Assembly: GCA_030824515.1 (NCBI GenBank) | Contig: JAVBXN010000016.1 | Coordinates: 1 to 64,000 of the forward strand | DNA from: Pelobacter sp. | Lineage (GTDB): Bacteria > Desulfobacterota > Desulfuromonadia > Geobacterales > Pseudopelobacteraceae | Reading direction: 5' to 3' | DNA: 64,000 bases | Shown here: positions 5,563 to 23,700 of the stretch, one piece after another | How the letters are laid out: every line of letters starts with the position of its first letter | How positions within the stretch are numbered: position 1 is the stretch's first letter | Program-made: the position numbers and the translations under genes | The notes under the pieces: model-generated | What the model was told of the DNA's origin: nothing | Database searches by the model: none | What the model saw: the letters and a program-made list of their open reading frames with translations, nothing else

Positions 5563-7242
<1,680 letters not shown>

Positions 7243-7361: not shown

Positions 7362-9365
7362 CTACCGGATCTCAATCTTCTCCACCACCACTGTCCCCTG
7401 CCCTATCGTCAGCGGCGCAGTCAGAGTTGTTGCGCCGTTGTTGGCATTGTAGGCGCTGTCATACCCCCCCTTCAGAGTCACGTAGACATTGCGGCCGGCA
7501 TTCAGGACTCCGGCCTGGCTGCCATCCAGCAACTGAATCACCGCGCCTGCTGACGCCGCGTCGTAGGCAGCCTGCAGGCTTCCGTATTCGGTTCCGCCGA
7601 TATGCAGCAGTGTGGCCTGGTTGAAGGTGGCGGTAACGCTCCTGTTGCCGGTCATGCTGACGCTGCAGGGACCGGCCGCCGGGCAATCGCCCCCCCACCC
7701 TCCGAAGGTTGCCAGTGCCGAGGGGGTGGCATAGAGATTGACAGTGCCGGAGAAGTCATAGCCGCAATCCGCTACTGTCCCCTTGACGCTGTTGGAGCAG
7801 GAGATGCCGGCCGGAACGCTGGTGACTGTGCCCCCCAGTCCGTTGGCCAGCGTGCCGTTGACCGCCACATGCACCGCAAGGGTCGGAATGGAAACCGTTA
7901 CGGCGACCGGTCCGAAGGCGGGCGAGATGTTGCCGGCCGCATCCCTCGCAAAGGCGTACAGCTGCTTGCTCCCTTCGCTGCCGAAGGTGAAACTGCCGCT
8001 GGCGGAAGCGCTCCAACTGCAGCCGCTGCCGCCGGCCGATTCGCTGACGCAGTAGCCGCTGACCGCCAGGTTGTCTGTGGCAGTAATGACGGTATCAACT
8101 GTCAGGGAGTTGGCGCGCGGTTGGGCCGTAAAGGCATTGACCTCCGGATTGCCCTGGTCGCTGATGGTAAGGGTGGCGCTGGCACTACCCTGATAGTTGG
8201 GATCGCTGATAGTGGCCGCCACAGCATAGCTGCCGATGGCTGATGGCGCGCCGGCGCTGCCGTTGTAGGTGATCAGCACCGATTTGCCGGCCGGACTGGT
8301 GGTGGCGGTTGCCGCTTTCGGTGTGCCGTCCCAGGCCTGGAGCAGGCTGCCTAAGGTGACTGTGGCGGTTGCTTTGTTGATAACCAACGTGCCGGCCGAG
8401 AGCCCGGTCAGAATGTTGTAATTAGCACTGTCGGCCGGCACAAAGTCGGCGGTGACTGCATAGCTGCCGGCGGCTGTCTTATCGGCTGATCCGCCGGTAA
8501 TGATGTTGGCGACCGCACCGGGAACTGAACTGGCGGAGATTGTGACGGTTGCTGCCTGTGGCGATCCGCTGTAAACCAGCGGCGAGTTGCCGACTGCAAG
8601 GGTTGCGGTCGGCGTAGCCTTGTTCACGGTAAGCGTGAAACTCTGATCTACCGTACCGGCGCTGTTGGTGGCGGTGATGGTGAGCGGGAACGAACCGGAT
8701 TGTGCAGGTGTGCCGCTCAGGGTGCCGTTGCTGTTCAGCGTGACTCCGCCCGGCAGCGTACTGGCTGTCGTAAAGGCCGGAGCGGGAATGCCGCTGGCGG
8801 TGACGACAAAGCTGCCAGGACTGTTATAGGTAAATGAGGTTGCCGATGCGCTGCCGAACGCGGGAGCAAGCCAGGTGGTAAAGGTCTGATCCGTACCGTT
8901 GTTCGTCCCGCCGCTGTTAACGGCGTTTATCCGGTAATGATAGATCGTCCCCGGCAAGAGTCCGCTGAGCGGTGCGCTGACGGAAGTATCGGAAGTGCCG
9001 GTAACCGTGGCCTGGGTTGAGGCGACAGTGGCGCCGTAAGCGACGGTCAGGCCGTACTCGAAGCCGACCGTCGCATCGGCGTTGTTGGCGTTGACCGTGC
9101 CGTTCAGGGTTGCGCCGGTGGCAGATAAGCCGCTTGCCGCGCCGGTGGTCACGGTCGGCGGGGTGTAGGCATAGCTGAAGACCGTACCGCTGCCGCTACC
9201 GGCATACACGGTTTTACCATCGCTGCTCACCGCCAGGGCGGTGATGACACGGTTCCCCAGCCCGGTGGCAAAGGGGCCGCTGCCGCTCCACTGGTTGTCG
9301 GCGGCGAGCATGGTTGTCGGCAGTAGCAACAACGCCAATAGCATCATGCAAAACAATCTGTTCAT
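7362..9365 (-). CDS. Exported multidomain Ig/Fn3-like surface protein
   Basis: 667 residues. Signal peptide (about 1-21, ending Met-Leu-Ala-Ala); a short propeller-like stretch; a fibronectin-like module; a putative-Ig (He_PIG-like) module; two MBG-like modules; a divergent InlB/Big-type Cys-containing repeat (about 530-590); and a C-terminal module of about 85 residues with a Gly-Gly-Tyr-Asp motif. Start ATG 9365 has GGAGG upstream; the longer frame to 9467 would run through the palindromic element at 9413-9524. It lacks the BNR cassette that ends its upstream neighbours, but its C-terminal module resembles that of the protein at 46751-48886. Extracellular or surface location is inferred; ligand unknown. 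Confidence 0.8.
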   Translation of the reverse strand: MNRLFCMMLLALLLLPTTMLAADNQWSGSGPFATGLGNRVITALAVSSDGKTVYAGSGSGTVFSYAYTPPTVTTGAASGLSATGATLNGTVNANNADATVGFEYGLTVAYGATVASTQATVTGTSDTSVSAPLSGLLPGTIYHYRINAVNSGGTNNGTDQTFTTWLAPAFGSASATSFTYNSPGSFVVTASGIPAPAFTTASTLPGGVTLNSNGTLSGTPAQSGSFPLTITATNSAGTVDQSFTLTVNKATPTATLAVGNSPLVYSGSPQAATVTISASSVPGAVANIITGGSADKTAAGSYAVTADFVPADSANYNILTGLSAGTLVINKATATVTLGSLLQAWDGTPKAATATTSPAGKSVLITYNGSAGAPSAIGSYAVAATISDPNYQGSASATLTISDQGNPEVNAFTAQPRANSLTVDTVITATDNLAVSGYCVSESAGGSGCSWSASASGSFTFGSEGSKQLYAFARDAAGNISPAFGPVAVTVSIPTLAVHVAVNGTLANGLGGTVTSVPAGISCSNSVKGTVADCGYDFSGTVNLYATPSALATFGGWGGDCPAAGPCSVSMTGNRSVTATFNQATLLHIGGTEYGSLQAAYDAASAGAVIQLLDGSQAGVLNAGRNVYVTLKGGYDSAYNANNGATTLTAPLTIGQGTVVVEKIEIR

Positions 9366-9531: not shown

Positions 9532-10806
9532 TCAATTTGGCAACCCGCCATTCATCGCCGTCCACAACCCGCAGCCATCCGCACTCGCAAACACCCCGTC
9601 CTCTGTCCCGGCGTAGAGCTTGCCGCTGGCATCAATGGCCAGCGAGACCACGTTCAGGTTGGTCAGGCCGCTGTTGGTGCAAACTTCCCAGGTTGTGCCG
9701 CTGTCACCGCTTTTGTACACACCACTGCCAGATGTCGCGACATACAGCGTGGCAGAGTTCTTCAGAGTCACTGCGGTAATCTGCGTGTTGTCCGGCTGAG
9801 TGGTGGCGGCTGTCCAGGTTGCGCCGCTGTCAATCGTTTTGTAGATGCCGCTGCCGCTGATGCCGGCATACAGTGTGGTCGATGTGACAGGGTCAACAAC
9901 CAGTTCACTCTGGCGGTAAACTCCTCCGCTGACGGGGAGACCACTGTTTTTAGCTGTCCAGGTCGCGCAGTCGGGGCTGCTGAAGATGCCGCCTTTGGTT
10001 CCGGCATAGAGCATACCGCTATCGATAACCAGCGAATAGACGTTGGCGTTGAGCCTGCTGTTGGCACAGGCGCTCCAGTCCGTGCCACCGTTGATGCTTG
10101 TGAAGACCCCGCTGCCGTGGGTGGCGGCAAAGAGGGTGGTTGCTGTAGCCGGGTGGGCAACGATTGCTTTCAGACGCAGATCGGTTGGCTGTGTCGTGGC
10201 GGCACTCCAGTTTGCGCCGCCGTTGCTGCTCAGATGGATGCCGGAGCCGTTGACTGCGGCCCGGACGCTCATCGGACTGCCGGAGTCAACCGACAGAGCG
10301 CCGACCCATTGGTCTGGCACAAAGGTGACCGTATAGGCGGGGGAGACCCCCTTGAAGTGAATCCATCCCAGGTTCTCTCCCCAGGCCCAGCCGTCAAAGC
10401 CCCCCGTAGCCGGATTGATGCTGACGCCGCCACCGGTTGGGGAAAAGTTGACCCAACCGGCCGCTTCAGACCAGCCGTAACCGGAGAGCGCCGCGCCGTT
10501 CAGGTTGACACCCCAATCGCTGCTGGTGCTGTTGGCGTAGGTGAAATAGCCGCCACCGCTGTGGCTGCCGAGCTTTATCCAGCCGATATTTTCGTTCCAG
10601 GCAAAACCCTCCAGGTGGTCGTCATAAACGCTGACGCCGGCACTGACGGCGGCGAGGTTGCTCCAGCCGACCGTTTCTGACCAGGCATATTTGTCGGTGG
10701 CGGAGATGTTGCCGCTGCTGACGAGCGGCGCCTGCGCTGCTGCGGCAACCGGCAGTGCCAGGATGCAGAGGAGGGTCAGGGGTTTGAGAAATATTTTAAT
10801 GTTCAT
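9532..10806 (-). CDS. Exported protein: Trp-rich repeats plus C-terminal BNR propeller cassette
   Basis: 424 residues. Signal peptide (about 1-25, Ala-rich end); four repeats of about 35-45 residues with the core Gly-x-x-Trp-x-Glu-x-x-Gly-Trp (YAWSETVGW, FAWNENIGW, YGWSEAAGW, WAWGENLGW); then BNR/Asp-box-type blades (repeated Ser-x-Asp-Ser-Gly-x-x-Trp and Thr-Leu-Tyr-Ala) from about 175 to the end, closing with WTAMNGGLPN. Start ATG 10806 is chosen because AGGTGG lies 8 nt upstream; the GTG at 10818 overlaps this RBS. It shares the C-terminal cassette with three other genes of the cluster. Sialidase-like catalytic residues are not evident, so the propeller is probably structural or binding. 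Confidence 0.8.
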   Translation of the reverse strand: MNIKIFLKPLTLLCILALPVAAAAQAPLVSSGNISATDKYAWSETVGWSNLAAVSAGVSVYDDHLEGFAWNENIGWIKLGSHSGGGYFTYANSTSSDWGVNLNGAALSGYGWSEAAGWVNFSPTGGGVSINPATGGFDGWAWGENLGWIHFKGVSPAYTVTFVPDQWVGALSVDSGSPMSVRAAVNGSGIHLSSNGGANWSAATTQPTDLRLKAIVAHPATATTLFAATHGSGVFTSINGGTDWSACANSRLNANVYSLVIDSGMLYAGTKGGIFSSPDCATWTAKNSGLPVSGGVYRQSELVVDPVTSTTLYAGISGSGIYKTIDSGATWTAATTQPDNTQITAVTLKNSATLYVATSGSGVYKSGDSGTTWEVCTNSGLTNLNVVSLAIDASGKLYAGTEDGVFASADGCGLWTAMNGGLPN

Positions 10807-10901
10807 GAATGTGTCCACCTTTCAGCACAAAAATCCCTACGATGAGTCACTGGAATTATTGCTAACGAAAGAGCTTAAGGTCGCTTCCGATTAAGGCCCG
10901 A

Positions 10902-11804
10902 TCAGGGCAACAAGGCGCTTCGAACCGGCCAGAGAAGACCCCTAAATGCGGTAGGGCCAGTAGCTGCCTTTTTTCTGGGATTCAAAACTCCGTTCACGAT
11001 ATTGATGGTTAAAGCCATGTCAGGATCTACCGTATCTTGACTGACCGTCCAGTAGTTATCTGTGGTTGAACCCGAAAAACCCTGCAAATTGCCGCCACCT
11101 ATCGCTTCCGGGCCGGTCATGAGAGACTGCATTTCTCTGACAGACGGAACCCGCCAGTCATTGAGCCTTGAACCATCAGTCAGCCCGTTGCTGCCATTTT
11201 GTAATTCGCCACAATATCTGAAGATATCTATCTGTGACGGAACACCAATGATCATGATCGTTGTGCAATCAAACTGAGACACACAATTGTTCAAACCGAT
11301 CGTTACAAAGACTCGGTTGTCAGTTGGCAAGGTTTTTTTCCATACCAGCCCGGTAGTCGTATCGGTGATCGTGCCGTCTGCGTTGTCATACCAGCGTCCT
11401 CCCGGGCTGAAAGAGCCGCCGGCCTTGAGAATAACGCCGCCGAGACGGGTGCCGATTTGCAGGCCCCACTTTCCTGATTGAAGGCCCCAGTAGGTTTTTC
11501 CAGACAGTACATGCTCGGGGCCGGCACCGGCAGTGTCGTCTATAACCGGCGCTTTATTCATGATCTCGTTGAGGTTATGCATGGTGCTGCCGGGTGATGC
11601 CGCAGGTTCTGTAAACGGCCCGCTGCGTTTCAAGACGGTAGCGCCGGTGTCGAGCCGATTGTAAAGATCTCCAAGCGTGAACATGGCGCTGCCGGACTCG
11701 GTCGGGCCGGCGGGAGCATTGAGGTCGCCCGCCCGGGTCAACGAAGCGGCTGACAAAATGATGACCGACAGAAACAGACTGACTCTGATGGCTATTTTCT
11801 TCAT
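10902..11804 (-). CDS. Exported DUF1566 (Lcl-type) domain protein
   Basis: 300 residues. Signal peptide (1 to about 25); a low-complexity stretch; then a C-terminal DUF1566-type domain with hallmark strings RWYDNADGTITDTTTGLVW (near 135-153), LNDWRVPSVREMQSL and a terminal GLLWPVR. This C-type-lectin-related fold recurs in exported proteins of Geobacter and other environmental bacteria; function unknown. ATG 11804 follows AAGGGGAAG. It sits between two BNR-cassette genes on the same strand but does not carry the cassette itself. Confidence 0.8.
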   Translation of the reverse strand: MKKIAIRVSLFLSVIILSAASLTRAGDLNAPAGPTESGSAMFTLGDLYNRLDTGATVLKRSGPFTEPAASPGSTMHNLNEIMNKAPVIDDTAGAGPEHVLSGKTYWGLQSGKWGLQIGTRLGGVILKAGGSFSPGGRWYDNADGTITDTTTGLVWKKTLPTDNRVFVTIGLNNCVSQFDCTTIMIIGVPSQIDIFRYCGELQNGSNGLTDGSRLNDWRVPSVREMQSLMTGPEAIGGGNLQGFSGSTTDNYWTVSQDTVDPDMALTINIVNGVLNPRKKAATGPTAFRGLLWPVRSALLP

Positions 11805-11847
11805 GGTTTCTTCCCCTTAGCTATTTTTCATCAGTACGGCATTTGCT

Positions 11848-14800
11848 TTAATTCGGCAGCCCGTTATTCATCGCCGTCCACGACCCGCAGCCATCCTCAC
11901 TGACAAACACCCCGTCCTCTGTCCCGGCGTAGAGATAGCCGCTGCCATCAATCTGCAATGACAGGATGTTCAGGTTCGCCGGCTGGCCGCTGCAACTGAT
12001 CCAGCTTGCGCCGCTGTCACTGCTCCTGTAGACGCCGCTGCCATAGATGGCGGCGTAGAGATTTGTCGCACCCTTCACAATCCCCTTTACCCGGCTGTTG
12101 GCCGGAAGACCGCTACTTTTGTCTTCCCAGTTGCCCGTATCTACCTTTTTCCAGACCCCAAGGCCGTCCAGCCCGGCATAAAGGCTGCTGCCATCAACAG
12201 TAATCACCACTGGCGGTTTTGCAGCATCCACTGTCAGCCCGCTGTTGACGGCGCTCCAGGATGTGCAGCCGTTTGTGCTTGTAAAGATTCCACCCTCGGT
12301 TCCTGCATAGAGAATTCCTGCCGGATCAATTGCCAGCGAGAATGCATAGAAGCTCGCGGCAGCTCCGTTTGTGCAGGCGCTCCAGCTTGCGCCGCTGTCG
12401 CTGCTCTTCCAGATACCGCTGCCGTAGGTGACTGTATAGAGGGATCCCGGAGTCGTCGGATTGAATAGAAGTGCCTTGACACGGAGGTTGCCCGGCTGTA
12501 CTGCCAGTTTTGTCCAGCTTGCGCCGCTGTCTGTGCTTTTATGGATGCCTTCACCGTCGATGGCCGCATATAGGGTTGCAGGGGCTGCCGTATCGAAAAC
12601 AATGGAAGTGACATTGCTGCTCTGATCCTTGTTGATACTGAAACTCTGCGTCACCTGTGGCGCAGCGCCGTAGGAGCTGTTGCCAGCCTGATTGGCGGCG
12701 ATGGTGCAGGTTCCGGCGGCAATGGCGGTGACTGTGGAGCCGCTGATGGTGCAGATTGAGGGGGTAAGGGAGCTGAAGATGACCGGATTGCCGGACGGGC
12801 CGCCAGTGGCGCTGACCGTGCCGGTTGTGCCGGTGATGATATCCGGCGCCGGGCCGAAGCTGATGCTCTGGCATGGCAGGGTGCTGAAGTTCTGATCCCC
12901 GCTGACGCTTGTACCGACAGCATTTGTGGCCTTAAGCCGGTAGTGGTAGGTGGTGGCGCAGGCCTGTAGTCCGGTGAGAGTTGCCGTGACCGGAGTCATG
13001 CCGCTTCCCGCGGTTATGGTTGCCGGTGTGGCCGTAGTGCTCATGCCGTATCCGCTGGTCAGGCCGTATTCGACGCTGACAGTAGTATCAGCCATGTTGT
13101 CGTTGACCGAGCCGGAGATGACTGCCCCTGTGGCGCCGGGTACAGCACTGGCTGCCAGGGTGAAGCCGGTTGCACTGTTAGTGAAGATGCTGCTGACTTC
13201 GCTGGCGCTCAAAACCCTGTTAAAGAGCCCCACCTCGTCAATCCCCCCTTTGAAGTAGTAGCTGGCATCGCTGCGCCCGCCAAAGACAAGGGGTGCTGTG
13301 GCAGTGGTCAGATCGGCTGCTCCGCTGATACTGCTGCGGCTGGCCACAAGGGCGCCGTTCATGTAGATCTTTGCCTCGCCGCTGCCGTAGGTGACAGCGA
13401 TATGGTTCCACCCCGTCTGGATGGCATTGGCAGGCGAGTCAACATAGCTGGACGGATATCCGGCCGGGATGAAGCGGATGGAATTATTGCTGCCGGTATG
13501 TATCTCGAAGCGCTCAACCCCTTTTCCCATCAGAAACTGGATATTGCCTGTGCCGATATCTCCCCAGTTGAACCAGGCGCTGGCGCTATACTGCGCCGGA
13601 TGGAGGGAGGATGAGTCGGGGATGCTGACATAGCCGCCAGCAGTGCCATCGAAACTGAACCCCTGCCCGGCGTAACCGGCGGCATAGGTTGCGCTTCCCT
13701 GCAGAGCGCCGTTGTTGCCGCTAATGCTGTCAACTGCGTTGCCACCTCCCGCCCACATGGAGATCAGTCCGGGGAAGTTGGTATAGGCAAAAGCCGGCTT
13801 GCCGCTGACCGGAAAGCTTTGGCTCACCTGTAAAGCCGGGGCATAGCTGCCGTTCCCCGTCTGGTCGGCGGCGATGGTGCAGGTTCCGGCAGTAACAGCA
13901 GTAACTGTCGCGCCGCTGACAGTGCAGACTGACGGGGTCAGGGAGCTGAAGGTGACCGCCAGGCCGGAAGTGGCCGTGGCGCTCACCGTGCCGTTCGCGC
14001 CACCCACTGCCATAGCTGGCGCCGCGCCAAAGCTGATGGTCTGCGGGATCAGCCCCGGATTCAGCGACGCCACCTTGACATGATCTCCCACCATTGCCGG
14101 CCCCACCATGTCCGGCACGACCAGGTAAAGATCCCAGTTGCCGTACTCCACCGTAACCGTTTGGCTGCCGTAGGGAGGCAGGGTGTAGCGGTGCTCAGTG
14201 CCGGCCCCGTTCCTCAGCACCGCCGTGTGGGCCGCATCGTCGTTGTTTCGCAGCAGGAAATCGCTCGTGGCAACGGTGGAAGAGACAGGCGCGGCGGTGA
14301 CCAGATAACGGTCGGCCCAGAAGACGCCACCAAGGGGAGAAAGGATCATGAACGGCGCGCTGTTGTAGGAAAACTGCGCCTCGGCCAGGGCGGTGGCGAT
14401 CAACTTGCGGGATCTGGCCGGGATGGTAACGCTGAAAATGTCGCTCCCCGCCATAACGTCAAGAGTAATCGGCGCGGAGTTGTCGTTGTAGAGGGTATAA
14501 ATCTGGCCGACGCCACCGGGATTGCCAAGGGCGTAGCCTCGAACCAATGAGGACGGGGACTGGGGTTCGGAGCAGAGCCGGTCGTTGGTGAGAATCTGCT
14601 CGAACAACGTGTAGTTGTAATAGAAGGCAGCGATGCTCCCCTTGCCGACAAAGACCTGCTGAACCTGAAAGCTGCCGATGACGACGCTGCCGTGATCGGT
14701 TCCGGCAGTGTAGTCAAGGGTGACGTCGTAATTGTTCCAATTCTTCATGTCAAAAGTGGCCAGGGTCGCGCTGTCGGAACAGGTGGGCACGTTATGGATG

Positions 14801-15276
14801 TTGGCGGTGGGAAAGCTGGCATTATCGGGTTCGAGATTATAGTTGGATCTGACCGTGGAGGTGAACGGGACAAAGGTGACGTCATTGCCGTACCAGGTGG
14901 TGCCGCTACAGACCACCTTGGTGCGGTAATGGAGCGACTGGTCGCTGCCGTCGGTCACCCAGGTGAAGTACATCTGGCTGCTGACCGCCACGCTACTCGT
15001 GCCGGACACCGTGCCGTATGACGCGCTGCTGCCGTAGGCGGTGGTGGGGCCGTAGTCGAAGCTGACCGTGCAGCTGTCGCCGTTGGGGTTCACCAGGCCG
15101 TTCAGCATCCCCTTGGTGGGAAGGGTCAATACGCTGCTCGCTGAGGCGCGGTACGGCGCGCCGTTGGCCACCAGACCGCTCGGCTTGAGGGTGCCGACGG
15201 TTGGCGCAGCAGCATAGGCATGGAAGGGGGCAAGGAGTAGAAGCAGGAATAGCAAAAGTATTCGATTGGTTTTCAT
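11848..15276 (-). CDS. Large exported protein: LamG, Fn3-like modules and C-terminal BNR propeller cassette
   Basis: 1,142 residues. Signal peptide (about 1-23); an N-terminal region of about 380 residues of unrecognised beta-rich sequence; a short Ser/Thr-Val module (SFGAAPAMAVGGANGTVSAT) repeated later near 815; a LamG/concanavalin-like domain (about 500-710, with DEVGLFNRVLSASEV near its end); a fibronectin-like module; then BNR-type blades (about 880-1142) ending WTAMNNGLPN. LamG domains bind carbohydrate or protein; here with a propeller this suggests surface binding. Nucleotides 12382-12590 are almost identical to part of the decayed copy at 22262, showing recent exchange. No anchor or sorting signal was recognised. 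Confidence 0.8.
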   Translation of the reverse strand: MKTNRILLLFLLLLLAPFHAYAAAPTVGTLKPSGLVANGAPYRASASSVLTLPTKGMLNGLVNPNGDSCTVSFDYGPTTAYGSSASYGTVSGTSSVAVSSQMYFTWVTDGSDQSLHYRTKVVCSGTTWYGNDVTFVPFTSTVRSNYNLEPDNASFPTANIHNVPTCSDSATLATFDMKNWNNYDVTLDYTAGTDHGSVVIGSFQVQQVFVGKGSIAAFYYNYTLFEQILTNDRLCSEPQSPSSLVRGYALGNPGGVGQIYTLYNDNSAPITLDVMAGSDIFSVTIPARSRKLIATALAEAQFSYNSAPFMILSPLGGVFWADRYLVTAAPVSSTVATSDFLLRNNDDAAHTAVLRNGAGTEHRYTLPPYGSQTVTVEYGNWDLYLVVPDMVGPAMVGDHVKVASLNPGLIPQTISFGAAPAMAVGGANGTVSATATSGLAVTFSSLTPSVCTVSGATVTAVTAGTCTIAADQTGNGSYAPALQVSQSFPVSGKPAFAYTNFPGLISMWAGGGNAVDSISGNNGALQGSATYAAGYAGQGFSFDGTAGGYVSIPDSSSLHPAQYSASAWFNWGDIGTGNIQFLMGKGVERFEIHTGSNNSIRFIPAGYPSSYVDSPANAIQTGWNHIAVTYGSGEAKIYMNGALVASRSSISGAADLTTATAPLVFGGRSDASYYFKGGIDEVGLFNRVLSASEVSSIFTNSATGFTLAASAVPGATGAVISGSVNDNMADTTVSVEYGLTSGYGMSTTATPATITAGSGMTPVTATLTGLQACATTYHYRLKATNAVGTSVSGDQNFSTLPCQSISFGPAPDIITGTTGTVSATGGPSGNPVIFSSLTPSICTISGSTVTAIAAGTCTIAANQAGNSSYGAAPQVTQSFSINKDQSSNVTSIVFDTAAPATLYAAIDGEGIHKSTDSGASWTKLAVQPGNLRVKALLFNPTTPGSLYTVTYGSGIWKSSDSGASWSACTNGAAASFYAFSLAIDPAGILYAGTEGGIFTSTNGCTSWSAVNSGLTVDAAKPPVVITVDGSSLYAGLDGLGVWKKVDTGNWEDKSSGLPANSRVKGIVKGATNLYAAIYGSGVYRSSDSGASWISCSGQPANLNILSLQIDGSGYLYAGTEDGVFVSEDGCGSWTAMNNGLPN

Positions 15277-15541
15277 GGAGAGTATCCCCGCTCAGTAGCT
15301 GGATAAATTCATAGCGATTAATGGCGACTGTCAGTTTCTATAGGTCTTGCCGCGAACGGATAAACTAGCACATGGCTATATAGCTGCCATTCTTAATTAA
15401 ATTCAATGACAATTTCCACACGGATTTGCACCCTGTACCATTCAAACCTCAGAGGTTTCCAAACTTCTGAGGTTTCTGTTGAAATAAATGTTTAAACCTA
15501 GCTCGGCAGTTGGCAGCTTCCTTAATTCGCGTGACTGCTCT
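15277..15541. other. Spacer with terminator hairpin
   Basis: 265 bp, more AT-rich than its flanks. Apart from the hairpin at 15444-15475 it holds no recognisable gene. It contains the 3' flank of the GLUG protein gene and the upstream region of the LamG protein gene. Confidence 0.5.
15444..15475 (-). terminator. Probable intrinsic terminator downstream of the GLUG protein gene
   Basis: A perfect 10-bp stem (15444-15453 with 15466-15475) with a 12-nt loop. It lies 67 bp past the stop of 15542-18046. The following T-tract on the minus strand is short, so efficiency is uncertain. Confidence 0.55.
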
Positions 15542-18046
15542 CTACGGTAACCCGTCATTCATCCCTGTCCACGTACCGCAGCCATCCCCGCTGGCATAAA
15601 TCCCGTTCTCCGTCCCGGCATAAATCTTGCCAGCCCCATCAATCTCAAGCGACAGAACGTTCAGATTGCCGGGCTGGGTGGCACAGACGCTCCAGCTGAC
15701 GGCATTGTCACTGCTCTTGAAGACACCGTCGCCGTAGGTGGCGGCAAAGAGCACCCCTGCACTGCTGCGCGCCAGCACCTTTACCCGCAGGTTGGTGAGA
15801 TTGTTCGGGGCAGTGCCGTTGGCAACCGTCCATGAAGCGCCGTCATCCGGGCTTTTATAGACCCCTTCCGTGTCAATGGCCGCAAAAAGGGTGGCCGGGT
15901 TTGTTGACTGGTCGATAACCATGCTGGCGGCTGCCTTGGGTATGGCTACGCAGGCCGACTGGCCTGATGCTGACTGCACTGTTCCGGCCGGGCAGGCTGT
16001 GCAGCTGAATGCGCCGGTGTTGGACTGGTAGGTTCCGGAAGAGCAGGCTGTCAGAGTCGTTGCCCCCGTATCAGGAACAAAATATCCGACCGGAGCCGCG
16101 ATACACGATGCCTGGCCCGGCGTACTCTGGTATTGGCCGGGAAGGCATTGATTGCACTCTATCTGTGAGGGTAGACTCTGATATGTGCCTGCTGAGCAGA
16201 GGGTTGGCGTGGTGGCTCCCGTTATGTTGACATAGGTTCCGGCTGGTGCCTGGATGCAGGAGGATTGCCCGGTGGCATTTTGATAGGTGGCCAGATCGCA
16301 GCTTTTGCAGGTGCTCTGGCCGGTAAGATCCTGATAGCTGCCGGCAGCGCAGGCTGTCGGCGCGGCGGCACCTGCCGGGGCAAAAAAGCCAACCGGTGCC
16401 GGGATGCAGGACGTTTGCGACCCGCCAGGCTGGTAGCTACCGGCGGCGCAGGGGGCGCAGGCGGAGCCGTTGTCATAGTTCCCCGGGGTGCAGTTCCTGA
16501 TATAGACATCATTCCGGGAAAAGAGCCGCAGCAGCGGATAGGTGATGCCATCGACGATGCGCCAGTCCGAACTGGAGCCAGCGGCTTCAGAGATATCCCA
16601 GCCGCTGAAGGTGGCGAGGCTCTTCATCTGCGACGTCGTCTTGCCGGTGCCGCCCGAGCTTGTGGCAGCTCCAGAACTCTGGGTATCCCAGAAGCTGTCG
16701 GTTATGCTGCCGCTGTTTGCACAGATCAAACCGCAAGGGGTTGCCCCTGAAACCGGGCTGGTGCTGTAGCTGTAGCTGATGCTGCCGCCGGTATTTCTCC
16801 CCACCAGACCACCGGAATACGGGTAAAGTATCACCGAAGAGGTTGACATGGTTTTGGTCGTCACCGGGCCGCTGCTGTAGCTATTGGTGATGCCGCCATT
16901 GATAAAATCACCCACCAGTCCGCCGGAAGCCGCTGCAGCGTTGCCTGCTGAAGCAGAGAATGCCGTGGATGAACCGCTGCTGTAACAGTTGCTGATGCTG
17001 CCGTTCGAGGAAACACCAACCAGACCACCTGAATAGGCAAAGGGAGGGATCACACCGGTTGCGTATGAAAAAGCGGTGACCGCTGCACTGCTGTAGCTGC
17101 CGCTAATGCTGCCGCCGTCCAGATACCCCACCAGACCGCCGACGTAAACAGCATAGGTTGAAGTACCAGTAACTGTGCCGCTGCTGTAGCAGTTGTTGAT
17201 GCTGCCGCCGGACATGGCTCCCACCAGTCCGCCGATATTGTAACCATCGTACATGGAGGAAAAAATCGAGATATTCACCCCAACATTACGCAACAGAGCG
17301 CCAGAGGTATCGCCGAAAAGACCGCCAGCGCCATAGGCGCTGTGTCTGGTGACATGCAACCGGTTGATACTGTGCCCAAGGCCATCGAATACTCCACTGA
17401 AACCGGTCGGCGATTTCCCGAGCGGAGTGAAACCGGCACCAAAGTTCCACCCCCAGGTTGTTGCTGCATCGATATTGGCGCCCAGAGCGTATTTGCCCGA
17501 AAGTGCACCTTTGATCCCCTGGAGAGTGCCATCATTACTGCTTGTGGCACTGCCAAGGGAGGTGATGACGGTGTAGGGAGAGCCGTTGATGGTGAGTGCG
17601 CCGCTGGCGCTGTAGTCAACCCTGCCGCCAAAGCCGCCGCCAGGTGCGAAGCCGCAGAGCGGCGTGCCGGTCATGTTCAGGCTGGCGCTGCCGGTAGCGG
17701 TCATGACGCCATTAATCTGGATATTACGGCTGGCGGTAAAGGTCAGGGTGTTGCCGATCCAGCTGATCGGCGCGGCAATGGTGATGTCGCCGTTTTCCGT
17801 GCCGCTGCTGCCGACATCAACCGTTGCGCCGCCGCCCGACAGCCTGCTCTGCAGCTCTGCTACGCTGACGGTTGCACCGCTGGCGCTGGCTGTCCAGACA
17901 TCCGGGGTTGCACCGGACCAGGAACCGCCACTGCTTGCCCCGCTGGAGATGGTGACGTTGAAGCCTGCCACCACCGGCACCGCCGAAAACATCAGAAACA
18001 ATAAAGCTGTTACGGATACCGCTGTAAAGCTTTTCCACGGATTCAT
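15542..18046 (-). CDS. Exported GLUG-repeat / Cys-rich repeat protein with C-terminal BNR propeller cassette
   Basis: 834 residues. Signal peptide (about 1-28); a beta-rich N-terminus typical of right-handed-helix proteins; at least five GLUG motifs (GGLVG followed by I-x-N/S-x-Y-S, about 245-460); a Cys-rich section of about 200 residues with repeated GTYQ-x-x-x-C units resembling ephrin-receptor/TNFR-like modules (about 520-715); then BNR-type blades ending WTGMNDGLP. The many Cys suggest an oxidising extracellular location. ATG 18046 follows GCAGGAGG. GLUG proteins are often large adhesins or beta-helix surface proteins; that role is inferred here. Confidence 0.8.
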   Translation of the reverse strand: MNPWKSFTAVSVTALLFLMFSAVPVVAGFNVTISSGASSGGSWSGATPDVWTASASGATVSVAELQSRLSGGGATVDVGSSGTENGDITIAAPISWIGNTLTFTASRNIQINGVMTATGSASLNMTGTPLCGFAPGGGFGGRVDYSASGALTINGSPYTVITSLGSATSSNDGTLQGIKGALSGKYALGANIDAATTWGWNFGAGFTPLGKSPTGFSGVFDGLGHSINRLHVTRHSAYGAGGLFGDTSGALLRNVGVNISIFSSMYDGYNIGGLVGAMSGGSINNCYSSGTVTGTSTYAVYVGGLVGYLDGGSISGSYSSAAVTAFSYATGVIPPFAYSGGLVGVSSNGSISNCYSSGSSTAFSASAGNAAAASGGLVGDFINGGITNSYSSGPVTTKTMSTSSVILYPYSGGLVGRNTGGSISYSYSTSPVSGATPCGLICANSGSITDSFWDTQSSGAATSSGGTGKTTSQMKSLATFSGWDISEAAGSSSDWRIVDGITYPLLRLFSRNDVYIRNCTPGNYDNGSACAPCAAGSYQPGGSQTSCIPAPVGFFAPAGAAAPTACAAGSYQDLTGQSTCKSCDLATYQNATGQSSCIQAPAGTYVNITGATTPTLCSAGTYQSLPSQIECNQCLPGQYQSTPGQASCIAAPVGYFVPDTGATTLTACSSGTYQSNTGAFSCTACPAGTVQSASGQSACVAIPKAAASMVIDQSTNPATLFAAIDTEGVYKSPDDGASWTVANGTAPNNLTNLRVKVLARSSAGVLFAATYGDGVFKSSDNAVSWSVCATQPGNLNVLSLEIDGAGKIYAGTENGIYASGDGCGTWTGMNDGLP

Positions 18047-18103
18047 GTTAATCCTCCTGCATCTTTCTTTGACATTCCTTCAGCCTTAAGCCTTAAGCCT
18101 GCC

Positions 18104-21100
18104 TCACGGCAACCCGCCATTCATCGCCGTCCACGACCCGCAGCCATCCGCACTGACAAACACCCCGCCTTCCGTCCCCGCGTAGAGCTTGCCGGTTCCG
18201 TCGATCACCAGCGAAATCAGGTTCAGATTGGTCAGGCCGGTGACAGCGCACGCAGCCCAGCTATCACCGCTGTTCACGCTCTTGAAAACACCATTGCCGT
18301 AGCTGGCGGCATAGAGGGTTGTACTGTCCCCCGCCTTGAAGGCCAGCGCCTTGATGCGCAGGTTTGTCGGCTGAACGGTGGCGGCTGTCCAGTTGGCTCC
18401 GCTGTCAACGCTGCGAAACACCCCTGCCCCATCCAGTCCGGCAAAAAGGGTAGTGGCGCTGTTAGGATCAATGACAATGCTGTTGGCTGAAACCGTTCCG
18501 TTGCCGGACAAGGTGACGGTATGGGGGCTTCCTGAGGCGTTGGAGGTGACACTGATAGCGGCGCTTTTCGTACCTGCGGACGTGGGGTTGAAGGAAATCG
18601 CCATGGTGCAACTGGCACCGGCGCTGATTGTGGCGACGTTGGCGCAGGTTCCGGTCAGACTGAAGTTGTCCTGGTCGGTCCCGGTTTTGGTGATGGTGTC
18701 GATGGTCACCGCTCCGTTGCTGGTGTTGGTAAAGACCGCTTCGCGGGTATCACTGCCTGTCCCCGTGGTGATGCCGCCGAAGTTGATGGCTGTGGTGCTC
18801 AAGGCCGCTGTCGGTTGGACCATGGTGGCAAGGGGGGTGACGGTATTGCTGTTGCCGGTGCTGTCATTGACACCGGTCACGGAGATGACCACCGGCTGCC
18901 CCGGCCGGCCGGTGGGGGTAATCAGCACGGTCCAGACGAGGTTCGGCGTGACATTTGCCAAGCTGGAAGCGGTACCATTGCTGACTGTAATGTTAGCCAG
19001 GCTCAGCCCGGTCACCGCCTTGTCGAAGCTGATGGTAACGGTGAAGGGGGCGTTGACCGTTGTCCCTCCGCCGGTGATGGTGGCGTTGGGGCTGGTGTTG
19101 TCGTAGCTTATGACAAGGGGCGTGGCAGCGGTGTTGTCGTTCCCTGCCGCATCCTTACCGGCGCCGGCTGCCACTTTGACCGTTACCGACGCTCCGGTCG
19201 GGGTGACGCTGAAACTGTAGTCGGTGTCGCTACCGGAGAAGCTGCCGATTGTGCCGTTTGTGACGGAAACCTTGCTGCTGTCAAATCCGGTCACCGGTTC
19301 GCTGAAAGTGGCGGTGACAGTAAACGGCTGATTGGTTGGACTTATTGCCGTCGTGGCAAGCGTTACCGTGGGGGAGGTACTGTCCTGTCCCACCAGAAAC
19401 CAGTAGGCGGTCATGTTGCCGATCAGCGGGCTGCTGCCAAAGCCGGTATTGATCGAGGTGGCGGCCTGGCCGTCGGCGGCAAAGGCGTAGAGGATATGCT
19501 CGCCGGGGGTAAGCGCCGGAGTGCGGTTAATTCCGGCAGAATTAAATGACTGCCACTGCCCCTGCCAGGTGTCGGCCTGGTAGTAGGTCGCTACGGTATA
19601 ACCGTAAAAGGTTGACAACATGGTGAAGGTTGGCGTCAAGTCGCTGCTCTGATTACCCGCAAGCGGGGTTATCGCTGTGATAAGGCTGTTGCCCATGACT
19701 TGCTGTTCGGTTGCCACCGTGACGCTGCTGCTGCCGCTATTAGCTACGTAGATCTTGCCGGTCACAGGGTTCACGACAACGGCCTGTGGTCCGACTCCCG
19801 ATGTCGTTACAGTGGAGATCGTATTGGTGGCGCCGTCGATCATACTGACGCGGTCGTCGCTGAAAGAGGCAACATAGATCTTGTTGGTCGCAGGGTTCAC
19901 GGCGAGTGACAGCGCTCCGGATGCCGTAGTTGTTACTATGGCGGCTACATTGGTGGCGCCGTCGATCACCCTGACAGAGTTGTCGGTGAAACAGGCCACA
20001 TAGATCCTGTTAGTCACCGGGTTCACGGCTATTGCCTGGGGGCCGCTCCCCACTGTCACGGTTGTGGTGGCATTGCTGGTACCGTCGATGACCGTTACGG
20101 TGTTGTCGCCGGAATTGGCCACATAGACCTTGTTGGTCACCGGGTTCACCGCCACGGCATAGGGGTTTGTCCCGGCGGTAACAAAGGCGGTCGAGTTGGT
20201 GGCGCCGTCGATCACCGTAACGTTGTTGCCGTTATAATTCGCCACATAGATCCTGTTGGTGACCGGGTTCACGGCGATTGCCCTGGCACCGGACCCACTG
20301 GTTGTCACTGTGGTGGTCGCATTGGTGACTCCGTCGATTACCATGACGAGATTACCAGCGGGAAAAGCTGCATAGATCTTGTTGGTGACCGGGTTCACGA
20401 CGACTGCCTGGGGGCCGGTTCCCGACATGGTAACTATGGCAGCCGCATTGGTGGCGCCGTCGATTGTCCAGACAGAGTTGTCATTGAGACAGGTCACATA
20501 AACCTTGTTGGTCACCGGGTTCACGACGATTGACTGGGGACCGTTCCCAACTGTCACAGTGGTGGTGGCGTTGCCGGTGCCGTCGATCACCGTCACGTTG
20601 TTGCTACTGGAATTTGCCACATAGACTTTGTTGGTGACCTGGTTCACCGCCACGGCATAGGGAGTTGTCCCGGCTGTCACGGTGGCGGTCGTGTTGCCGG
20701 CGCCATCGATCACCGTGACGTTGTTGCTGTTCCTATTCACCACATAGACCTTGTTGGTCACCGGGTTCACAGCCACGGCATAGGGAATGTTCCCCACTGT
20801 TATAGTCGTGGTGGCGTTGCTGTCGCCGTCGATCGCCGTTACGTTGTTGCTGATGACATTCGCCACATAGACCCTGTTGGTGACCGTGTTCACCGCCACG
20901 ACAGAGGGATTCGTCCCGGCGTCGACAGTTGTGGTGGCGTTGGTGGCGCCGTCGATCACTGTCACGTTATTACTACCGGTATTCGCCACGTAGACCTTGT
21001 TGGTAACCGGGTTCACCGCCACGGCCCTGGGATTCGTCCCGGCGGCGACAGTTGTGGTGGCGTTGGTGGCGCCGTTGATCACTGTCACGTCATTGCTGCC

Positions 21101-21745
21101 GTTATTCGCCACATAGACCTTGTTGGTCACCGGGTTCACCGCTACGACATCGGGAGACGATCCCGTCGTCACGGACGTGGTGGTGTTGGTGGCGCCGTCG
21201 ATCAGCGTGACGTTGTTGCTGTTCCTATTCACCACGTAGACCTTGTTGGTAGCCGGGTTCACCGCCACGGCCCTGGGATTCGTCCCAGCCGTCACGGTTG
21301 TGGTGACGTTGGTAGCGCCGTCAATCACTGTCACGTTATTACTGTTGTAATTGGCCACATAGACCTTGTTGGTCAACGGGTTCACCGCCACGGCATAGGG
21401 AGACGATCCCGTCGTCACGGTCGTGGTGGTGTTGGTGATGCCGTCGATCACCGTCACGGTGTTGCTGCCCATATTCGCCACGTAGGCCTTGTTGGTCAAC
21501 GGGTTCACCGCCACGGCATACGGATTCGTCCCAGTCGTCACGGTTGTGGTGACGTTGGTAGCGCCGTCGATCACTGTCACGTTATTGCTGTTGTAATTGG
21601 CCACATAGACCTTGTTGGTCACCGGATTCATCGCCATACCCCAGGGACCTGTTCCCGCCGCCAGGCTGGCGGTAACGATCTCAGCGCGTACAGGCAGGAT
21701 GCCAACATTCAGGGCAAGCAGAATAACAATTCCGATAATACGCAT
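18104..21745 (-). CDS. Exported YVTN-propeller protein with Ig-like modules and C-terminal BNR cassette
   Basis: 1,213 residues. Signal peptide (about 1-22); sixteen YVTN-type repeats of about 41 residues (core NKVYVAN, NNVTVIDG, AVAVNPVT) to about residue 690, enough for two seven- or eight-bladed propellers; two Ig-like modules (about 800-980); a choice-of-anchor/ASPM-like module with INFGGI and a Cys pair (about 990-1090); then BNR blades ending WTAMNGGLP. ATG 21745 follows AAGAGGAGAG. YVTN proteins are surface-layer or secreted proteins in archaea and bacteria. The repeats are close to identical over long stretches of DNA, so copy number may change by slippage or unequal exchange. Confidence 0.85.
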   Translation of the reverse strand: MRIIGIVILLALNVGILPVRAEIVTASLAAGTGPWGMAMNPVTNKVYVANYNSNNVTVIDGATNVTTTVTTGTNPYAVAVNPLTNKAYVANMGSNTVTVIDGITNTTTTVTTGSSPYAVAVNPLTNKVYVANYNSNNVTVIDGATNVTTTVTAGTNPRAVAVNPATNKVYVVNRNSNNVTLIDGATNTTTSVTTGSSPDVVAVNPVTNKVYVANNGSNDVTVINGATNATTTVAAGTNPRAVAVNPVTNKVYVANTGSNNVTVIDGATNATTTVDAGTNPSVVAVNTVTNRVYVANVISNNVTAIDGDSNATTTITVGNIPYAVAVNPVTNKVYVVNRNSNNVTVIDGAGNTTATVTAGTTPYAVAVNQVTNKVYVANSSSNNVTVIDGTGNATTTVTVGNGPQSIVVNPVTNKVYVTCLNDNSVWTIDGATNAAAIVTMSGTGPQAVVVNPVTNKIYAAFPAGNLVMVIDGVTNATTTVTTSGSGARAIAVNPVTNRIYVANYNGNNVTVIDGATNSTAFVTAGTNPYAVAVNPVTNKVYVANSGDNTVTVIDGTSNATTTVTVGSGPQAIAVNPVTNRIYVACFTDNSVRVIDGATNVAAIVTTTASGALSLAVNPATNKIYVASFSDDRVSMIDGATNTISTVTTSGVGPQAVVVNPVTGKIYVANSGSSSVTVATEQQVMGNSLITAITPLAGNQSSDLTPTFTMLSTFYGYTVATYYQADTWQGQWQSFNSAGINRTPALTPGEHILYAFAADGQAATSINTGFGSSPLIGNMTAYWFLVGQDSTSPTVTLATTAISPTNQPFTVTATFSEPVTGFDSSKVSVTNGTIGSFSGSDTDYSFSVTPTGASVTVKVAAGAGKDAAGNDNTAATPLVISYDNTSPNATITGGGTTVNAPFTVTISFDKAVTGLSLANITVSNGTASSLANVTPNLVWTVLITPTGRPGQPVVISVTGVNDSTGNSNTVTPLATMVQPTAALSTTAINFGGITTGTGSDTREAVFTNTSNGAVTIDTITKTGTDQDNFSLTGTCANVATISAGASCTMAISFNPTSAGTKSAAISVTSNASGSPHTVTLSGNGTVSANSIVIDPNSATTLFAGLDGAGVFRSVDSGANWTAATVQPTNLRIKALAFKAGDSTTLYAASYGNGVFKSVNSGDSWAACAVTGLTNLNLISLVIDGTGKLYAGTEGGVFVSADGCGSWTAMNGGLP
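19717..21690 (-). repeat. Sixteen tandem YVTN-encoding repeats of about 123 bp
   Basis: The unit is about 123 bp with high nucleotide conservation (for example the segment encoding Ala-Val-Ala-Val-Asn-Pro recurs nearly unchanged). Copies 10, 11, 14 and 15 are one codon longer and more divergent, which suggests an older core and a more recently amplified N-terminal half. Confidence 0.8.
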
Positions 21746-21761
21746 TAGATCTCTCCTCTTA

Positions 21762-21880
21762 TTACGGCAACCCGCTATTCATCGTCGCCCATGTCCCACA
21801 GCCATCCAGACTGACAAACACCCCTGCCTCGCTTCCGGCGTAGGAGTAGCTTGCGAGGGTAGAGCTTGCAAGGGTCGCGT
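21762..21880 (-). pseudogene. Orphan 3' fragment of the BNR propeller cassette
   Basis: In the minus frame ending at TAA 21762-21764, about 38 codons read as the end of the shared cassette: YAGSEAGVFVSLDGCGTW then ATMNSGLP. Upstream, the frame passes through a small duplicated stretch (TLASSTLAS) and meets a stop near 21882. There is no start or RBS. It sits directly upstream of the YVTN gene and appears to be the remains of another family member. Confidence 0.75.
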
Positions 21881-22143
21881 CTCAACTACCTACAGGATCA
21901 TCTCTTTCTTTCCCTGCCTTCCAGATATCTCTTGAGCGCTTCGTGACAAAAGTCAAAACCATGTATTTAACAGGATAAAAGCGGATAAGATCAAAACCGG
22001 CCCCCTGTTTTAAGCCTTTATCTCATCTTTCGCAGTTGTAAAAACATTGTAACATATTGATATTATTGACAGTACAGCGTCTAGATACATAGTAAGACAG
22101 GTTTGTTCCCCAACAAATCAACTTACATATACAAGGAGACGCT
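21881..22143. other. AT-rich spacer carrying the left flank of an IS stub
   Basis: No gene is recognisable. A TTGACA at 22066-22071 with weak -10-like bases 17-18 bp downstream lies before the small transposase-like start at 22144, and AAGGAGA lies just before that ATG. This looks like the 5' flank of a former insertion sequence. Confidence 0.4.
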
Positions 22144-22230
22144 ATGCAACAGAATGTAACAGAGATTTCCTCTGTTGAAAACCAGATCAACCTGTTCTTT
22201 CATAATCATTCTCTTGGTAAGTTGCTTTGA
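22144..22230 (+). pseudogene. Truncated 5' end of a transposase-like gene
   Basis: A good RBS (AAGGAGA, 22133-22139) precedes an ATG and 28 codons beginning MQQNVTEISSVENQINLFF and ending HSLGKLL, then a stop created at the junction with unrelated DNA. The string resembles the N-terminus of IS4/IS1380-like transposases with a Gly-Lys-Leu-Leu motif, recalled rather than searched. From 22225 on, the DNA matches the region starting at 18067, so the gene was cut by a rearrangement. Confidence 0.45.
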
Positions 22231-22261
22231 CATTCCTTCAGCCTTCAGCCTTAAGCCTGCC

Positions 22262-22985
22262 TCACGGTAACCCGCTGTTCATAGGGGTCCACAACCCGCA
22301 GCCATCCGCACTCGCAAATACCCCGTCCTCCGTCCCGGCGTAGAGCTTGCCGCTGCCGTCAATCTGCAATGACAGAATGTTCAGGTTCGCCGGCTGGCCG
22401 CTGCAACTGATCCAGCTTGCGCCGCTGTCGCTGCTCTTCCAGATACCGCTGCCGTAGGTGACTGTATATAGGGATCCCGGAGTCGTCGGATAGAATAGAA
22501 GTGCCTTGACACGGAGGTTGCCCGGCTGTACCGACAGTTTTGTCCAGCTTGCGCCGCTGTCTGTGCTTTTATGGATGCCTTCACCGTCGATGGCCGCATA
22601 TAGGATTGCAGGGGTTGCAGGGTCAGGAACAATAGCAGTGACCTTTATCTGTTGCCAGATGGCATAGAGGGTGACATCAGACTCACCCATGGTGAAACTG
22701 TCTCCACCCTGATACGTCGTGCCGCTGCCGTTAGCTGCTGTGTTCCAGCCGGCAAAGGTATAGCCGGTTCTGGTCAGACCGCCGCTGTTGGCAAGAATGG
22801 TGACACTGTTTTCGTTTGTGTAGTTACCACTGTCCAGCAGAGCGCTGCCGGAGGTAGCGCCGTTGCCGTTGTAGGTGACGGTGTAGCCATTGACAGTGAA
22901 GCTGAGTACCGTTCCAAAGCTGGTGCCTTCCGAGTTCTGGGCAATGGCGCATACAGTAGTACGTCGAACCCGTGGTGAGGCCGGT
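22262..22985 (-). pseudogene. 5'-truncated surface protein: Fn3 scrap, InlB-type repeat, BNR cassette
   Basis: The frame ending at 22262 encodes an Fn3-like tail (CAIAQNSEGTSFGTVLSFTV), an InlB/Flg_new-type repeat (TYNGNGATSG to LYAIW), then a BNR cassette ending WTPMNSGLP. It lacks a signal peptide and a credible start. The upstream 60 or so codons of the same open frame (to 23161) are out-of-frame sequence over a broken BTAD domain and are not counted. An extra base near the Tyr-Tyr preceding Cys shifts the frame at the join. The cassette has only the outer blades of the copy at 11848: the middle 381 bp are missing in frame. Confidence 0.75.
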
Positions 22986-23190
22986 GTAGAATTCTTCCTG
23001 GAGTTCGTCGGTCTCGATCCCTTTTTCATAGAGTTCGATCGATTTGTGCCACTTTTTCCGTTCGCCATAAAGCCGCCCCGCCAGCTCGACAAGACGCGCG
23101 AACCGGCTCCGCAGCCGCTACCGCATGGCGGCTCCGGCGGAGAATCCCGCATCGTCAGCAAGGAAGTTGCCGTTGTACATGGCGAGCGCC
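22986..23190 (-). pseudogene. Remnant of a BTAD (transcriptional activator) domain
   Basis: In a minus frame different from the open one, the translation reads ALAMYNGNFLADDAGF, an in-frame TAG at 23118-23120, then RLRSRFARLVELAGRLYGE and SIELYEKGIETDELQEEFY. This matches the pattern of the bacterial transcriptional activator domain (TPR-like, SARP/MalT-type regulators). Start, DNA-binding part and ATPase are absent. It is fused at about 22985 to the Fn3 scrap of the neighbouring pseudogene. Confidence 0.7.
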
Positions 23191-23220
23191 TTAATTATAT
23201 GCCGCAAAAAAGAATTACAA

Positions 23221-23700
23221 TCATTTGCAGGTGCCGTTTTCCAGACTTACCTTCATCAGTTCGGCAAACATCCGGCGTGCCTCCGGATCGGAAATTGCCG
23301 ACGACTGTTCTTCTATTAGGGCCAACTGGGCAACGGTAAGAGGCTTTGGTGGGGGCATTTCAGGTTCTTCATCGACAACCGCCTTCTGGACTTTTCCGGC
23401 CTTGAGCACTATTTCACGCACGACCTCTCCACCCAGACGACTGTTGAGCTTTTCCTTCATCATGCCGGTCATGAAACGCAGTTCCTGGATCCAGGGAGCG
23501 CTGGAGACCGCCACGGTCAGGGTTCCGTTGATGATCCTCAGCGGTTGGGCTCGAGCGGCAACCGTTGCTCCGACCACATCGGGCCAGACCCGCCAGATTT
23601 CGGCCTCGCGCAGTCGTTCCGCCAGTCCCAGGCCCTGAAGACACTCCTGGACCAGACCCGGCAATGGCCGGGGAAAAGGCATTCTAGGACGCTTTGCCAT
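23221..23700 (-). CDS. DUF721 / DciA-like protein
   Basis: 159 residues. The N-terminal part (about 15-95) fits DUF721: EIWRVWPDVVGATVAARAQP, then VSSAPWIQELRFM. The C-terminal third is charged and probably flexible. DUF721 proteins related to DciA help load replicative helicase in bacteria lacking DnaC/DnaI; membership in that role is inferred. The ATG at 23700 overlaps the end of the upstream membrane-protein gene by 17 bp, which suggests translational coupling. Confidence 0.8.
   Translation of the reverse strand: MAKRPRMPFPRPLPGLVQECLQGLGLAERLREAEIWRVWPDVVGATVAARAQPLRIINGTLTVAVSSAPWIQELRFMTGMMKEKLNSRLGGEVVREIVLKAGKVQKAVVDEEPEMPPPKPLTVAQLALIEEQSSAISDPEARRMFAELMKVSLENGTCK

Follow-up and report, generated by a model that had tools for sequence, protein, structure and literature searches.

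We analyzed a stretch of 64,000 nucleotides from Pelobacter sp. (contig JAVBXN010000016.1, positions 1 to 64,000; called the window here, at its full length), in which several genes for exported proteins end in the same propeller cassette. Four intact open reading frames (ORFs) of the minus strand, g1 to g4, span 9532-21745 and share this C-terminal cassette, and their N-termini are all different. To the right of 21745 lie a fifth complete cassette (o2) and a scrap of one blade (o1). An initial annotation of the same DNA had set the locus at 9532-22985; this is its core, but the locus extends further, to a gene for a single-blade (SB) protein at 7362-9365 and to a decayed regulator at about 22965-23246. 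The cassette genes, the cassettes and the SB gene are as follows.

9532-10806, minus strand: g1, exported protein with Trp-rich N-terminal repeats and a double cassette of six blades
9535-9900, minus strand: second (terminal) cassette of g1
9934-10293, minus strand: first cassette of g1
11848-15276, minus strand: g2, exported protein with Ig-like and LamG domains and a double cassette of six blades
11851-12213, minus strand: second (terminal) cassette of g2
12235-12603, minus strand: first cassette of g2
15542-18046, minus strand: g3, exported protein with a GLUG and Ephrin_rec_like Cys-rich N-terminus and a single cassette
15545-15925, minus strand: cassette of g3
18104-21745, minus strand: g4, exported protein with YVTN propeller repeats, Big_12 and ASH and a single cassette
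18107-18484, minus strand: cassette of g4, for which a structure was predicted
21762-21881, minus strand: o1, cassette scrap with the last blade only
22262-23194, minus strand: o2, open frame with no visible signal peptide, carrying an InlB-type repeat and one complete cassette (22265-22633)
7362-9365, minus strand: SB gene, 166 bases after g1, for an exported protein with a single propeller blade first and then fn3/MBG Ig-like domains
9153-9308, minus strand: single blade of the SB protein, at the N-terminus of the mature protein, placed by alignment and profile matches; strand order D'-A-B-C by analogy with the cassette model

The four genes with different N-termini and a common C-terminal cassette had already been proposed in the initial annotation at these coordinates, and the ORFs, the Pfam domains and the identities between the cassettes agree with it. 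Of the two orphan cassettes that it placed at the right end, o2 is indeed complete, but o1 is only a last blade. BNR-type blades are common to all these proteins as it had stated; the unit could be defined more closely as three blades, of which g1 and g2 hold two units each. The terminal unit is about 121 residues long and shows 49% (g3), 50% (g2) and 62% (g4) identity to that of g1, and all four proteins finish in W-T-x-M-N-x-G-L-P(-N). The five terminal cassettes were found in their own genome with E values of 5.3e-63 to 1.2e-58 by a profile built from the same rows; with the g2 cassette as a single query, the other four were found at E values of 2.3e-34 to 1.7e-25. At the level of sequence, a chance likeness of the five is excluded. 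Other matches in this genome were weaker and fell within long frames (contigs C51, C8 and C16). By Pfam, the N-terminal domains are Laminin_G_3 and Big-like in g2, GLUG and Ephrin_rec_like in g3, and YVTN, Big_12 and ASH in g4, and no Pfam match was obtained for the Trp-rich repeat region of g1. The signal peptides of the cassette proteins were read by eye, without a predictor. The Sortilin-Vps10 model passed its cut-off for g1 and g2, missed it for o2 and was unlisted for g3 and g4; with the Pfam BNR model, g1 scored 11.8 bits against a cut-off of 27, and the other window proteins were unlisted.

The cassette consists of exactly three Asp-box blades, single or doubled. It was found in six genomes, namely G000 (that of the window), G126, G141 (stretch L053), G525, G1057 and G1061, and all 13 cassette genes hold three or six blades by the blade profile, giving 48 blades or 16 cassettes (11 genes with 42 blades in 14 cassettes, plus the G1061 and G1057 genes with three blades each). 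Ten of the 13 have three blades only, an incomplete propeller within one chain. The repeated Asp-box S/T-x-D/N-x-G-x-T/S-W is visible in the cassette alignments, which assigns the blades to the Asp-box (BNR) type. A mixed alignment of single and double cassettes (A4) was out of register and was not used. For comparison we took the ordinary propellers in 20 stretches picked from the matches, not those of all matches; one of these stretches (L108) gave no ORF over the threshold. A Cys within the Asp-box was present in 14 of the 42 cassette blades versus 1 of 207 ordinary blades, and W-x-x-C was equally distributed (14/42 versus 1/207). Both Cys, in blades 2 and 3 respectively, are invariant in an alignment of ten cassettes and present in 14/14 cassettes, and the Gly of the third Asp-box is replaced by Cys in all 14.

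The cassette also differs from ordinary propellers by its position. In all 13 genes the protein ends with the cassette, with 0-1 residue beyond the last match; these genes are the 10/10 ORFs with a cassette match of at least 150 bits and those of G525, G1061 and G1057, and o2 is counted among them though its frame looks decayed. Ordinary ORFs (best match at most 110 bits) continue for 173 to 1023 residues past the match in 16 cases, and three frames with weak matches (one in L054, two in L110) stop 6, 22 and 23 residues past it. The N-terminus of g3 has a homologue in a GLUG protein of the L053 genome (38% over 673 columns), where it is joined to a different C-terminus. Searching related genomes with the terminal 120 residues or so, a check proposed in the initial annotation, thus found the cassette at the end of otherwise unrelated exported proteins, and its claim that the C-terminal part is constant and the N-terminus exchanged held. 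Its further suggestion that the invariant tail is a recognition signal did not. The motif W-x-x(-x)-[NST]-x-G-L is found in 15/42 cassette blades and in 103/207 ordinary blades, and the tail aligns to solved BNR proteins; judged by its sequence, WTxMNxGLP is an ordinary blade end. Because a like motif occurs in half of the ordinary blades, the tail is no signal in itself, and we rejected it as a special one. What was offered as grounds for abandoning the whole proposal, that the tail is an ordinary blade strand, therefore applies to the tail but not to the cassette, which is set apart by the Cys pair and its position.

In all seven cassette loci (the window, L053, two in G126, and G525, G1061 and G1057), an SB gene lies directly downstream of the cassette genes, about 10 to about 180 bases after the last of them, depending on the start codon chosen. 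The mature N-terminus of its product, approximately N-Q-W-x-G-x-G-P-F-A-T-G-L-G-N-R-x-I-T-A-L-A-V-S-x-D-G-x-x-V-Y-A-G-T-G-S-G-T-V-F, forms one blade that we read as D'-A-B-C. The link was noticed in four loci (the window, L053 and both of G126) before the G525 locus was read. The G1061 and G1057 loci, subsequently fetched as a test, each have an SB gene, with 83.5 and 76.2 bits against a blade profile that was not built from them. In the order, 2/141 genomes matched this profile (G000 in one place, G126 in two), as did 2/395 genomes of the phylum sample (G000 and G525). These are four distinct places, every one at a cassette locus; as the profile was built from the same four, the informative part of this search of the order and the phylum sample is that nothing else matched at E up to 1e-7. 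Among 32 stretches scanned with the profile, there were seven strong matches (76-99 bits), all at cassette loci, and the next best were weak pieces of an ordinary propeller (E 1.8e-6). The SB proteins of G525, G1061 and G1057 are 116, 109 and 107 amino acids long, little beyond a leader and a blade. The blade is thus retained while the remainder of the protein is shortened or different. The SB gene at every cassette locus lends support to the option, raised in the initial annotation, that the cassette has a common binding partner, which the blade protein would be.

The fold of the cassette was predicted with AlphaFold2. For the g2 double cassette the model (from three sequences) has a predicted local distance difference test score (pLDDT) of 87.4 and a predicted template modeling score of 0.86, and its best match by VIA-align is the six-bladed Pizza6 design (Z 27.3, root mean square deviation (rmsd) 2.3, 239 residues aligned). 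The final strand of this model is at residues 252-253 of 260, the two residues immediately following the tail W251, and therefore the tail starts inside the last blade. In the model the tail is the outer strand of that blade, not an element outside the propeller as the initial annotation had considered. For the g4 single cassette (pLDDT 92.5), the model matches parts of larger rings; GH74 and Ycf48 rank near the top, with Z of about 14-15 and an rmsd of 2.1-2.6, and no Pizza design is among its best 50 structural matches. Ring closure was judged from such structural matches and not from the model coordinates. A seven-bladed ring for the double cassette was considered and set aside: Foldseek superposed it on Ycf48, which we take to have seven blades, and on 3b7f with an rmsd of 4.6-5.9, versus 2.1-2.7 for VIA-align on Pizza6 designs; as the programs differ, this is only a hint towards six.

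The cassette is rare. In the order, 14/141 genomes had a match at 1e-26, and only G000 and G126 exceeded 116 bits. Strong matches were found in 2/277 genomes of the class, 2/395 of the phylum sample, 1/59 relatives of G525, 3/348 genomes of the class of G525 and 1/96 relatives of the L053 genome. These genome sets overlap, and the thresholds were 1e-15 (family), 1e-26 (order), 1e-34 (phylum), 1e-33 (class) and 1e-30 (others). Since scoring covered at most 31 candidates per genome for the order, 11 for the phylum, 15 for the class and 12 for the class of G525, these counts are lower bounds and cassettes may be missed. Viral contigs gave one distant locus (36% identity), and plasmids gave 12 records, all below 60% identity (best 36%).

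Sequence evolution was compared in the G525 clade (three genomes, three pairs, Nei-Gojobori method, starts set at the shared MRRE). The ratio of nonsynonymous (dN) to synonymous (dS) substitution rates was 0.18, 0.33 and 0.33 in the cassette versus 0.88, 1.09 and 0.68 in the N-terminal part, a contrast in line with a constant C-terminus and an exchanged N-terminus. In the SB protein, dN of the blade was 0.03-0.07 versus 0.15-0.34 for the leader and 0.16-0.64 for the tail. The blade dS of the SB genes of L116, L125 and L126 was 0.03, 0.14 and 0.14 versus 0.64, 0.48 and 0.29 for the leader; the short tail gave 1.36, an undefined value and 0.11. Between the genera of G525 and of G1057/G1061, dS of the locus was 0.14-0.20, no greater than within G1057/G1061 (0.13-0.29), and for this reason the locus alone suggests a recent transfer between genera. 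Recombination may also have occurred within the window: o2 looks like a mosaic of the two g2 cassettes, with 93.6% identity to the first (235 bases) and 87.2% to the second (196 bases).

Other genes and pieces were seen at these loci. Two of them complete the list for the window.

10902-11804, minus strand: cassette-free exported protein located between g2 and g1, with a weak likeness (25% over 142 amino acids) to an Lcl_C-type N-terminus that bears a cassette in L053
22965-23246 (about), minus strand: decayed BTAD-type regulator in two frames, 43% identical over 46 amino acids and 50% over 24 to a BTAD frame beside the second G126 locus

The BTAD frame at the second G126 locus is likewise upstream, and a 51-residue piece of the decayed regulator was assigned to no family by Pfam. 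Two distant genomes have, close to the cassette locus, a gene that we named by eye as an ABC-F type ATPase (window 5563-7242, L116 12092-13930); its orientation differs between them, and this may be chance. In L055 (9400-10200), a lone last-blade scrap lies between what looks by eye like a REP-type transposase end, just ahead of it, and a short YVTN protein that follows.

The ordinary exported propellers (L094 to L107, L109) have features of their own. Weak matches included, exactly 14 blades were counted in 9/15 of their genes, and 10, 12 (cut by a contig end), 13, 13, 15 and 18 in the others, which suggests two seven-bladed rings for the 14-bladed ones. An exact C-terminal module, approximately GGYDxxF...TTIxGxLTVxxGxLxVxxIxI, closes the SB protein of the window (7362-7480) and, by eye, 8/15 ordinary propeller proteins (L094, L095, L097, L098, L101, L103, L106 and L109); it is possibly another constant C-terminus. 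A dockerin-like repeat pair, again by eye, closes proteins of L092 (9117-13433), L096, L099, L100, L105 and L107.

The interpretation that we prefer, tentatively and at a little under an even chance, is that the cassette is a C-terminal docking half-propeller with the downstream single-blade protein as its dedicated partner. It builds on what is observed: the limits of the module, its exact C-terminal position, blade numbers divisible by three, the conserved pair of Cys and a blade gene that always follows downstream. In the accessible part of PMC6805158, propellers are described as almost always single-chain and known rings as having four to twelve blades; with three, the cassette is unlike the known closed rings. 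For the Asp-box type, the part of PMC2716378 at hand gives rings of 6, 7 or 10 blades. As three blades would be too few for a known ring, either two cassettes in tandem would have to close it in cis or another chain in trans, the downstream exported protein with its lone N-terminal blade would be a scaffold or cap for the half-propeller, and unrelated exported domains would thereby be mounted on one common hub. What we infer is that the blade binds to the cassette, with 3+3 or 3+3+1 = 7 as the stoichiometry, that a disulfide links the pair of Cys, and that the location is at the surface. A seven-bladed plug-and-socket ring, in which two three-blade halves from one or two proteins and a separately secreted blade combine as 3+3+1 and any N-terminal domain can be mounted, is a bolder version that we consider rather unlikely; the number seven is suggested by the ordinary propellers with 14 blades that related bacteria have.

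Several results weigh against the docking of a single blade on the half-propeller. The double-cassette model fits closed six-bladed rings without an extra blade, and in the models each cassette blade has its own outer strand, so that the single blade would supply no obviously missing strand. The blade dN/dS was 1.22, 0.39 and 0.47, each pair differing by 4 to 11 changes, with a dS of 0.03, 0.14 and 0.14, and purifying selection on the blade protein therefore cannot be claimed. The L055 scrap (no blade-profile match), o1 and o2 have no SB gene of their own, and the loci are few and non-independent. As far as the available text of PMC6805158 goes, engineered fragments gave homo-oligomers only and mixed rings were unobtainable, and three-blade WRAP pieces formed nine-bladed rings.

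The six-bladed fit is also the strength of a simpler account, in which the half-propeller homodimerizes (3+3) or closes in cis (6) and the single-blade protein is a mere neighbor outside the ring. PkwA fragments of three blades dimerized, which suggests six blades (PMC6805158, in part), and Pizza proteins assemble to six blades (PMC7337062, in part). We nevertheless find this account improbable, although worth keeping in mind, as it leaves the SB gene in 7/7 loci and the almost blade-only protein unexplained. Still less probable in our judgment is that the locus is an evolutionary relic, a gene set that spreads as a unit, with cassettes kept alike by recombination and a single blade left over from the N-terminus of a long propeller gene of the past. 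The patchy distribution in class and phylum, the low dS between genera, the blade dN/dS not clearly below 1, the mosaic o2 and the decayed right end of the locus would all agree with such a history, but the low dN/dS of the cassette, the presence of both Cys in every cassette and the retention of the blade while the rest of its protein shrinks or differs argue against it. As the cassette strictly occupies the C-terminus of exported proteins whose N-termini are unrelated, it could also be a signal by which an unnamed secretion or surface system sorts or exports them. This we regard as very unlikely, given that the tail is an ordinary outer strand by motif and model; known C-terminal sorting families (PEP-CTERM/IPTL-CTERM, the T9SS tail) were not listed for the six window proteins by Pfam or NCBIfam at E up to 1, the presence of each model in these libraries being unverified, and the SB gene was the sole neighbor at all loci in the stretches read, secretion machinery elsewhere in the genomes not having been searched for. 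No match to the SprB family was found in the genome of the window, a search that is uninformative since all 14 controls were silent too. If the docking half-propeller is real, it would be a natural half-ring serving as a C-terminal tag that can be moved between proteins, beside a blade encoded by its own gene, a test bed for propeller evolution via multi-chain intermediates, and a simple bacterial means of mounting interchangeable domains on a common hub.

Among the matches listed in the open-licence literature, we found no published account of the cassette or of a bacterial single-blade partner, but three known systems can be compared with it. Asp-box propellers (Vps10/sortilin, Ycf48 and GH74 xyloglucanases) are like the cassette in blade sequence, Asp-box and predicted fold, and differ from it in that the cassette is a free-standing three-blade unit, always C-terminal, with Cys for Gly in the third Asp-box and a second Cys in blade 2. 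Engineered Pizza2, PkwA and WRAP fragments are, in the parts of PMC6805158 and PMC7337062 available, similarly two- or three-blade pieces that make a ring from several chains; engineered part-propellers close by oligomerizing, and a lone PkwA blade is an unfolded monomer (PMC6805158, same part). Unlike them, the cassette is a natural unit, fused to different exported proteins and accompanied by a separate single-blade gene. Similar in its way of working would be Sec13/Seh1 with the domain invasion motifs of Sec31, Nup145C and Nup85, where, in the accessible part of PMC8907234, a blade is supplied in trans and an incomplete propeller is completed by the blade of another protein. Sec13 and Seh1 are eukaryotic WD40 propellers minus one blade, whereas the cassette is bacterial, exported and of the Asp-box type, and would be completed in trans if our interpretation is correct.

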